From NCBI GenBank assembly GCA_025463135.1, contig JAOAPY010000005.1, positions 186,001-250,000 on the forward strand: 64,000 bases of DNA. Reading direction: 5' to 3'. The stretch is from Acidobacteriota bacterium (GTDB lineage Bacteria; Acidobacteriota; Blastocatellia; Pyrinomonadales; Pyrinomonadaceae). The notes beneath the pieces are model-generated. The model did no database searches, was not told the origin of the DNA, and worked only from the letters and a program-made list of their open reading frames with translations. A program made the translations under genes and the position numbers. Each line of letters opens with the position of its first letter. The stretch's first letter is position 1. Positions 26,166 through 32,342 of this stretch are shown piece by piece.

Positions 26166-28061
26166 ATGAAAAGCGGCTGTGTTAGCGCGGAAGTGAAAAA
26201 ACAGAGATCGATTGAGCTCCCCGTTTTAAAAACTTCTCCGGCTCAGAAAAGCGATATTCGCAAATCAAAAGCGAGCAGGTGGCGGGCAGCGGTCCTCATC
26301 GTTCTTACGCTGCTGATGATTGCGCACGTCGTTCAATGGTGGCTCATGGGCAGGACGGTTTCGCCCATCGAGCCTTCGGAAACCATGTACACGCTCCAGC
26401 GTGGCGCGATCAACGCCGGATTTATCTTTTTTGCCCTGGCAATCATGGCGACGCTGATCTTTGGACGCTTTGTTTGTGGCTGGGGCTGTCACATTGTGGC
26501 CATCCAGGATTTTTGCGCCTGGATACTAAAGAAGATCGGTCTCACTCCCAAGCCGTTTCGATCGCGACTGCTGGTCTATGTACCGCTCATCGCCGCGCTT
26601 TATATGTTCGCCTGGCCGACCGTCTTGCGAGCATTTACTAAGCCGGAAAACGAACCACTCATCCCCGCCTTTACGAACCATCTGGTGACCAGCAGTTTTT
26701 GGGAAACGTTTCCTACCGTCGCAGTTGCGATCCCTTTTCTTTTCATCTGCGGCTTTATGACTGTTTATTTTTTGGGTTCGAAAGGATTTTGCACTTACGC
26801 CTGTCCTTATGGCGGCTTCTTTAGTCTTGCTGACAAGCTCGCGCCCGGAAAGATTCGGGTCACCGACGCCTGCAATCAATGCGGCCACTGCACTGCGACT
26901 TGCACCTCGAACGTTCTGGTCCACGCAGAGGTAAAACAGTACGGGATGGTTGTCGATCCCGGCTGCATGAAGTGCATGGACTGCATCAGTGTCTGTCCCA
27001 ACGATGCTTTGTACTTCGGTTTTGGAAAGCCGACTATTGCCGTTCCCAAAGCGAATGCCGGTAAGAAAAGCTACTCACTGACATGGCCTGAAGAGATCGC
27101 GGGGGCAGTCGTTTTTCTGGTCAGTTTCCTCGCAGTCTGGGATGCATACCAGCTGGTTCCAATGTTGATGGCGCTCGGTTGGGCGACGATCACGACCTTT
27201 CTCGCTCTCAGGACCTGGAGATTGCTGCGAGCACGGGAGCTGTCGTTTTATGGCTTCAATTTGAAGTCGTCGGGCAGAATGCGAAAAGCGGGCTGGGGAT
27301 TTCTAAGCTTTGCGATTGTCTGGATCGGCTTGAATGCGCACAGTGGCTGGGTGCGCTATCACGAATACCAGGGCGAGGGCGCCTTTCAGAAACTCCAAAT
27401 TCCGGACGAGCTGGCGCTGGCACAGGCAAACCCGGATTCCTGGCTGAGCCCGAGCGATCGGCAGAACGTGATCGAAGGGAAAGATCATTTTCAAACAGCT
27501 TCGCATTTTGGTCTCTTTGTGAATAGCGCGGCGCTATCAAAGCTTGCCTGGTTTGACTATCTCTCGGGTGATGCAGAGCAATCCGTCCAGTTGCTCGCAC
27601 AGGTCGCGCGGCATCAACAAGGTCAGGCGAGGGCTTTGAGCCTGTATTACCGCGGCACGATCCTGAACCGTTTGCGACGTTACGAGCAGGCGCGGACTAA
27701 TCTGGATGAGGCCCTGTCGGAGCGGCCCGATTTGATCTTGGCTCGCGAGGAAAAAGGTGAATCGCTTTGGCAGCTGGGTCGCAGAGATGAAGCCATTTCG
27801 GTTTGGAGCGACGCTGTGCAGCGAAATGCGGGCCTTGTCCTGGCCAATAATCAACTGGCCGGCGCGGCAGCGTCACTGGGCAGATCCGCAGAGGCGCTGG
27901 TTTATGAAAAGCAGGCCGATCAATTCACGCCTGACAATCCGCTTTACCATTGGATGCTCGCCCTGAGATTGGAAAACCTGGGAATGAACGAGCTTGCCGA
28001 GAAACATTTTCAACGCGCGATCCAACTCGATCCGGGATTACAGTCTCGCCGGCAACGGTGA
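26166..28061 (+). CDS. Membrane polyferredoxin (NapH/CcoG-like) fused to TPR domain
   Basis: A 631-residue protein. The N-terminal half has about five membrane helices and the paired cysteine motifs of NapH/NosR/CcoG proteins: CGWGCH at 104-109 and CTYACP at 209-214. Two [4Fe-4S] ferredoxin motifs follow, CNQCGHCTATC at 236-246 and CMKCMDCISVCP at 267-278. Two more hydrophobic helices lie at about residues 305-345. Residues 450-630 are tetratricopeptide repeats (ALSLYYRGTILNRLRRYEQA; GMNELAEKHFQRAIQLDP). The first half should carry electrons across or along the inner membrane. The TPR half probably holds a partner protein. No nap, nos or cco genes are adjacent. Confidence 0.9.
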   Translation: MKSGCVSAEVKKQRSIELPVLKTSPAQKSDIRKSKASRWRAAVLIVLTLLMIAHVVQWWLMGRTVSPIEPSETMYTLQRGAINAGFIFFALAIMATLIFGRFVCGWGCHIVAIQDFCAWILKKIGLTPKPFRSRLLVYVPLIAALYMFAWPTVLRAFTKPENEPLIPAFTNHLVTSSFWETFPTVAVAIPFLFICGFMTVYFLGSKGFCTYACPYGGFFSLADKLAPGKIRVTDACNQCGHCTATCTSNVLVHAEVKQYGMVVDPGCMKCMDCISVCPNDALYFGFGKPTIAVPKANAGKKSYSLTWPEEIAGAVVFLVSFLAVWDAYQLVPMLMALGWATITTFLALRTWRLLRARELSFYGFNLKSSGRMRKAGWGFLSFAIVWIGLNAHSGWVRYHEYQGEGAFQKLQIPDELALAQANPDSWLSPSDRQNVIEGKDHFQTASHFGLFVNSAALSKLAWFDYLSGDAEQSVQLLAQVARHQQGQARALSLYYRGTILNRLRRYEQARTNLDEALSERPDLILAREEKGESLWQLGRRDEAISVWSDAVQRNAGLVLANNQLAGAAASLGRSAEALVYEKQADQFTPDNPLYHWMLALRLENLGMNELAEKHFQRAIQLDPGLQSRRQR

Positions 28062-31547: not shown

Positions 31548-32342
31548 TCAATGCAGCGCCTGCGCGGCTTGCAGGATTTGTTCCGGCCGGGCACGGACCC
31601 AGTAGTTTTCAGTAAGGTTCAACCAGCGAACCGTCCCGGAAGAATCCAACAGAAATTCGGCAGGCCGCGCGACGTCACGGCCGTCGATCCCGGCGCCGGC
31701 GTGGACCAGATCAAAGCGGCGAATCGCTTCCGTGTTTGGATCGGAAAGAAACGTGAAGGTATAGCCCGCCTGCGTCCGTAGAGTCTGTGATTCCGCGGGA
31801 CTGTCGACGCTAATCGCAACCGGACGAATCCCCACCTGTTGAAACTTCGCCAGGTTCTGCTCAATGCTCCGTAACTCGGAGTTGCATGAAGGTCACCAGT
31901 AACCTCTGTAGAAAACCAGCAACACGCCCCTGGGTTTTGTGCCGCCAACGGGCGTAGACAGTAATTCCGCGAGCGAGGTTTGCTTGCCGGTCGAATCCGA
32001 AAGAGTGAACTCCGGAGACTTTTGTCCTACTTGTGGGGCGCCATGCGAGGCGGGTAACCAGCGCGCCATGATGAAGGCGGAAAAAATGAAGAGCGCTATT
32101 ATCGCAAAGCTGAGGGTGGCGAGTATTGAAGCCGCGATTTTGGACCGACGTGGACGGCCCGCGGCAAAACCACGCTTGATACCCAGCACCAACAGAACCG
32201 CTGCGATTCCAAAGAGCAGCAGGTTCACCCAGGGAAAATCCCGCGTGACCGGAAAGTTAACAAAGAAGAGCGGGTAGCTGAGGAGCGCAATCACGCTGAC
32301 GAACAAACTTGCCCACGTAAGCCAGTTGAATCGAGTCTTCAT
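31548..32342 (-). CDS. Membrane-anchored redoxin, candidate selenoprotein (in-frame UGA at active site)
   Basis: One frame of 264 residues, interrupted only by TGA at 31895-31893 (residue 150). The sequence before it ends VLLVFYRGYW and the sequence after begins PSCNSELRSIEQN, so the motif is W-U-P-S-C where AhpC/TSA redoxins have W-C-P-x-C. The remaining redoxin fold follows in frame: VAISVDSPAES, TFLSDPNTEAIRRF and the strand AEFLLDSSGTVRWLNL. Three membrane helices lie at about residues 8-29, 38-55 and 68-92, so the catalytic domain is anchored. AGAGGGAT lies just before the ATG and a TGCTATAGA extended -10-like site about 40 bases upstream. Read as two genes, neither half would be functional. 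The alternative is a nonsense mutation. Confidence 0.8.
31862..31884 (-). promoter_or_regulatory. Candidate bacterial SECIS hairpin
   Basis: On the mRNA, 12 nt after the UGA, CUCCG pairs with CGGAG around the loop AGUUA (five perfect pairs). CAA and UUG extend the stem across a two-base bulge. The loop starts 16 nt after the UGA and has G among its first two bases, which fits the known rules for bacterial SECIS elements. Confidence 0.65.

Follow-up and report, generated by a model that had tools for sequence, protein, structure and literature searches.

Selenocysteine-containing Prx-like thiol:disulfide oxidoreductases are a known kind of selenoprotein, for which reviews give a PF00578 domain and a UxxC or UxxU site (PMC13188914, PMC9312934). 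In the GOS survey, the Prx-like 1 group carries UxxC and comprises 225 Sec forms versus 2,740 Cys forms; for other Prx-like types, the survey notes several cases of fusion to a further domain (PMC2398784). The protein described here resembles these selenoproteins in its PF00578 domain, its UxxC and the predicted replacement of the first Cys by Sec (PMC13188914, PMC9312934, PMC2398784), but it adds a three-helix membrane domain. Moreover, whereas Cys forms far outnumber Sec forms in Prx-like 1 (PMC2398784), the main clade here is without a Cys form.

Other redoxins are related more loosely. PrxU, with its TxxU motif, shares the fold but places Sec at the peroxidatic position, three residues later than in our protein. 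Bcp/PrxQ and AhpE provide the best solved folds for the redoxin (Z about 23-24), yet our protein lacks their PxxxT/S motif and catalytic Arg, and has Sec and a membrane domain. ResA is a membrane-tethered extracytoplasmic redoxin with a CxxC-type site and one anchor helix. The membrane-tethered extracytoplasmic layout and CxxC-type site are shared with the ResA/TlpA group, to which there is a significant sequence match, but our protein has three helices and Sec where ResA has a single anchor. Against the ResA model NF002854 it reaches 41.4 bits, below the NCBIfam cut-off of 170. The highest-scoring NCBIfam model is that of a SelL-related redox protein, NF040769, at 46.8 bits against a cut-off of 120 and over residues 108-217 only, and no NCBIfam model covers the membrane-fused redoxin.

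One reading frame interrupted by a TGA

The gene lies in a 64,000-nt stretch of DNA, hereafter the window, from an Acidobacteriota bacterium (contig JAOAPY010000005.1, positions 186,001 to 250,000), to which the coordinates in Table 1 refer. From its ATG the frame runs for 264 codons with exactly one internal stop, a TGA at codon 150 in the context FYRGYW-TGA-PSCNSELRS, where it occupies the first position of the redoxin W-x-P-S-C motif. ORF calling with table 11 yields two separate pieces instead of this gene, 31893-32342 (149 aa) and 31548-31835 (95 aa). When the TGA is read as a residue, the Pfam match to AhpC-TSA (PF00578) is unbroken over residues 105-240 (E 1.1e-24, 87.2 bits, gathering score 26).

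Table 1. Features of the gene and their positions in the window
Feature	Position	Strand	Description and basis
Complete gene	31548..32342	-	264 residues plus terminal TGA; three membrane helices, then a Prx-like redoxin domain with predicted Sec at residue 150
N-terminal membrane domain	32061..32324	-	Helices at residues 7-25, 38-58 and 65-94; AlphaFold model, hydropathy
Redoxin (AhpC-TSA/Bcp-like) domain	31551..32030	-	Residues 105-264; Pfam, Foldseek, VIA-align
In-frame TGA, predicted U150, first residue of UxxC	31893..31895	-	TGA in 107/107 aligned homologues; Sec machinery in genome
Cys153 codon, proposed resolving thiol of UxxC	31884..31886	-	Invariant in alignment A2; matches peroxidatic Cys of peroxiredoxins (alignment to 2cx3, 1xvw)
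SECIS-like hairpin, stem CUCCG/CGGAG, loop AGUUA	31867..31881	-	12 to 26 nt after the TGA; pairing in 76 sequences, compensatory changes, codon bias
Terminal TGA	31548..31550	-	Same gene; conserved hairpin absent behind it

The initial annotation of this DNA had joined the two apparent ORFs into one frame with a single TGA, had foreseen that automated calling would split it, and had taken the redoxin to be intact on both sides of the stop. The coordinates and the residue number are correct, the ORF list does give the two pieces, and the Pfam match is continuous, with both flanks conserved in homologues. Its central claim, that this is a selenoprotein, is strengthened by the machinery in the genome, the TGA in all aligned homologues and the covarying hairpin downstream. 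From these comparisons we hold with high confidence that the TGA at codon 150 encodes selenocysteine and that the gene is a genuine selenoprotein.

Conservation of the TGA among homologues

In a scan of 97 genomes of the window's class, in which matches covering at least 70% of the protein were taken, ten other matches were found (37-69% identity), each with one internal TGA and with the aligned residue invariant; one of them, L016, has no membrane domain. Among 396 Acidobacteriota genomes scanned, 27 carriers turned up. A wider search, through 84,980 species genomes and with codon 150 excluded from the patterns, yielded 409 relatives; the 80 best of these were retained. Across the aligned stretches from these scans codon 150 is TGA in 107 of 107 and Cys in none, a count in which some stretches are the same record twice and the bottom eight or nine are non-fused or distant relatives. 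Approximately 90 are distinct full-length homologues, and the later counts refer to 91 loci that have a usable start and differ from one another in their C-terminal halves. Whether Cys or UGA occupies residue 150 had been proposed as a check on the selenoprotein reading; homologues from independent assemblies show TGA there, not TGC or TGT. Since all 107 homologous stretches share TGA at the same codon, its placement is far beyond chance.

The carriers are mostly draft assemblies, which, together with the two pieces given by automatic ORF calling, might suggest a pseudogene, or a sequencing or assembly error at the TGA that conceals a normal Cys codon or has broken the redoxin. This explanation is refuted by the conservation of the TGA across assemblies and phyla, many of the assemblies being independent and both halves being conserved, and the covarying hairpin after the TGA also stands against it; we consider its probability practically nil.

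By label, the carriers belong to Acidobacteriota, Verrucomicrobiota, Candidatus Binatota, Myxococcota and Pseudomonadota; most are uncultured soil bacteria, Pyrinomonadaceae and Candidatus Udaeobacter among them. Those labelled Binatota, Myxococcota and Pseudomonadota, each a single bin or a few, may be mislabelled. In the tree of homologues, Verrucomicrobiota form one side of a branch (99/96). Related redoxins carry Cys at the aligned residue (FYRGGW-C-PYC). So does a distant relative that is fused in the same way, L182 (G903:C28; 30% identity over the redoxin), which reads YRGDY-C-PFA, with Cys at 150 and Ala at 153. Its genome has selB, so that loss of the Sec pathway does not explain the Cys. 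A TAG codon reported in the weak relative L157 lies away from the active site.

Across most loci no gene family recurs near the gene, and the neighbourhood names no partner. In the window groES/groEL adjoin it, and their homologues were found in only 5 loci.

Selenocysteine pathway of the host genome

The genome that carries the window (6.48 Mb, 56 contigs, 100% complete) has all four components for which a search had been proposed: a tRNA-Sec at C33:40642-40736 (69.7 bits, gathering score 47) with anticodon UCA by ARAGORN, selB at C33:67585-69483 (364 bits, cut-off 242), selA at C15:8894-10276 (524 bits) and selD at C42:181825-182751 (354 bits). An in-frame TGA also lies inside selD (locus L042, minus strand), in the active-site stretch CSG-U-AAKLD, and selD is therefore probably a selenoprotein itself.

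UGA is read through as Trp in some bacteria, and on this precedent the codon might be read as another residue through a changed code or leaky readthrough. Such decoding is very improbable here: the genome has the full Sec pathway, the same gene and other window genes terminate with TGA, and related redoxins carry Cys at the site, not Trp. In the window's class selB exceeds the cut-off in 87 of the 97 genomes and is so general there that its correlation with carriers is by itself weak evidence. Every carrier tested from the named-genome scan has it (8/8; seven over the cut-off, one in two pieces), as do three further carriers, which makes 11 of 11 further carrier genomes tested in all.

This genome has at least one further redoxin with an in-frame TGA (L172, G000:C2:126200-127800, minus strand; match at G000:C2:126776). 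It has a signal peptide and the sequence VLAFTGG-U-TKEM; by its motif it is a predicted TxxU selenoprotein of the peroxiredoxin type.

A conserved hairpin downstream of the TGA

Over 42 nt from the TGA, silent positions are unusually conserved. At U+7, Leu is encoded by UUG or UUA in 78 of 85 sequences, compared with 20% UUR among Leu codons elsewhere in the same genes; at U+8, CGG or CGA encodes Arg in 84 of 84 (CGR elsewhere, 33%), and at U+6 the Glu codon is GAG in 85 of 91 (elsewhere 53%). The stem C15 U16 C17 C18 G19 / C25 G26 G27 A28 G29, closed by an AGUUR loop, is paired in 76 of 76 distinct sequences, a set that leaves out a divergent subclade (L126, L128, L135-L139). Two adjacent pairs change on both sides in ten sequences, from U-A to C-G and from C-G to U-A, and the residue changes from Ser to Leu; these two pairs account for 20 compensated cells. 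Because the ten sequences look like one clade, each pair may have undergone its compensatory change only once. Covariation scores 0.236, versus 0.148 when shuffled (0/500 as high), and sliding the stem partner lowers pairing from 100% to 28-68%.

With z -1.45, the window's own hairpin is unexceptional in folding energy, so the case for the hairpin rests on comparison and not on energy. No Rfam match above threshold was found near the gene. An alternative 6-bp fold, GCAACU-CCG-AGUUGC, appears in single-sequence folding, but the CUCCG/CGGAG stem is preferred because the alternative is broken in many homologues. In its conserved pairing, its compensatory changes and the rare codons that it imposes, the CUCCG/CGGAG hairpin behaves as a bacterial SECIS would, and we infer that it is one.

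The divergent subclade lacks the family stem and has ACUGCAA-GGU-UUGCAGU instead, slightly further downstream (20-37 nt after the TGA), for which shuffled controls of single sequences were not significant. The subclade appears to have replaced the family hairpin by this one, whose GGU apical loop recalls the E. coli fdhF SECIS.

Redox site of the redoxin domain

Among solved structures, those closest in fold are Bcp4, BcpB and AhpE (Z about 23-24, rmsd 1.5-2.0; Bcp4, Z 23.8) by Foldseek and VIA-align, the latter covering residues 99-264 and so speaking for the redoxin part only. When the sequence is aligned with those of AhpE and A. pernix PrxQ, the peroxidatic Cys is matched by Cys153. Sec150 takes the place of the Thr in PxxxT/SxxC (a Ser in A. 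pernix PrxQ), R146 that of the motif Pro, and P227 that of Arg116 of AhpE, a column displayed by the R116A entry 4xih. The initial annotation had placed Sec at a redox cysteine of a peroxiredoxin-like family: it does sit at the first position of the redoxin motif, but this position corresponds to the peroxiredoxin Thr, three residues before the peroxidatic Cys.

R146, Sec150, Cys153 and P227 are all invariant in alignment A2. Two hallmarks of peroxiredoxins are therefore missing, as R146 and Sec150 replace the Pro and Thr of PxxxT/SxxC and P227 replaces the conserved catalytic Arg. The protein could still be a true peroxiredoxin in which Cys153 is peroxidatic and Sec150 only assists or resolves, given that Bcp and AhpE have their peroxidatic Cys in the column of Cys153 and are the best fold matches. 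We think this unlikely, in view of the absent motif, the invariant Pro in the Arg116 column and the membrane-fused relative L182, in which Cys is retained at 150 and position 153 is Ala. That pattern in L182 points to residue 150 as the nucleophile. The Pro opposite UxxC would form a cis-Pro-like arrangement, and UxxC with an opposite Pro fits the layout of a thiol-disulfide oxidoreductase, which is the predicted function. The protein thus appears to fit the Prx-like thiol:disulfide oxidoreductase selenoproteins rather than true peroxiredoxins.

An N-terminal membrane domain

AlphaFold2, run with a 61-row alignment, gives a mean pLDDT of 95.2 and places three helices ahead of the redoxin fold, and hydropathy detects three membrane segments in 88 of 91 homologues; the three N-terminal membrane helices of the initial annotation are well founded. 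Mean net charge is +2.0 at the N-terminus, +0.4 in loop 1, +3.6 in loop 2 and +0.6 after helix 3. The positive-inside rule links the distribution of charge to topology, and on this basis the N-terminus is probably cytoplasmic and the redoxin domain periplasmic. Searched alone against Pfam, the membrane domain gives sub-threshold matches to unrelated multi-pass families and none above cut-off.

A profile of this domain found 16 copies in 347 Acidobacteriota genomes, all where a TGA redoxin is found at the same place, and three copies plus one spurious match in 241 Verrucomicrobiota genomes. As the copies in both phyla sit with a TGA redoxin, the association between the two parts is tight. L178, a weak profile match from Verrucomicrobiota, was set aside, since it looks like an unrelated multi-pass membrane protein.

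It is possible, though doubtful, that the domain is more than an anchor and itself reduces the redoxin directly, as a module for electron transfer or quinone handling. Such a role would suit the periplasmic loop, in which P31, R34, D35, P37 and W38 are among the most conserved parts of the domain, and the fact that the domain never occurs without the UGA redoxin in the Acidobacteriota genomes searched. Against it, the domain of the window protein contains no Cys, and the N-terminal region is free of Cys in 61 of 91 homologues. A DsbD-like thiol relay is impossible for the window's membrane domain because no Cys is there.

Discussion

We propose a model where SelB and tRNA-Sec decode UGA codon 150 as selenocysteine, guided by the hairpin whose role we infer from its conservation. 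The three helices would anchor the product, leading from the cytoplasmic N-terminus to a redoxin domain that, judged by charge distribution, would face the periplasm. Sec150, at the N-terminal end of a helix, would attack an oxidized substrate (a disulfide, peroxide or similar oxidized group), Cys153 would resolve the intermediate into a selenenyl-sulfide, and a membrane or periplasmic thiol reductant would then reduce it. We favor this catalytic scheme for Sec150 and Cys153 with some reserve. Overall, the protein would work as a relative of TlpA/ResA-type and Bcp-type redoxins that is tethered to the membrane and uses Sec.

That the protein is a membrane-fused variant of a known Prx-like selenoprotein kind, and that this variant is itself new, is well supported. 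The initial annotation had regarded the combination as undescribed, and a limited search of open-access literature returned no description of a three-helix/Sec-redoxin fusion; its novelty is nevertheless lower than first implied, because the redoxin part belongs to a selenoprotein kind already listed (PF00578, UxxC). A membrane-anchored branch would thereby be added to the prokaryotic selenoproteome, of a sort that standard ORF calling cuts in two, and the covariation of the hairpin offers a ready SECIS model for the carrier phyla. That Cys forms are almost absent suggests a selenium-dependent reaction. One may speculate further, and with little confidence, that this is a distinct, essentially Sec-only family of several soil phyla, in which a dedicated three-helix domain both displays a Sec-Cys redoxin in the periplasm and supplies it with electrons from the membrane. 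If true, this would be a route of periplasmic selenol reduction not described before.

The window's class also contains many secreted, non-fused TGA redoxins (L021-L038; FYRGYW-U-PWC and -PYC) along with Cys versions, and by this predicted repertoire it is rich in Sec redoxins. Another TGA redoxin, L181 (G772:C41; FFRGHW-U-PFC), has a different-looking hydrophobic N-terminal region and is possibly a separate membrane fusion. Elsewhere in the window, 26166-28061 on the plus strand encodes a ferredoxin-like 4Fe-4S protein of the multi-pass type, which appears to carry a fused TPR-like region at its C-terminus.
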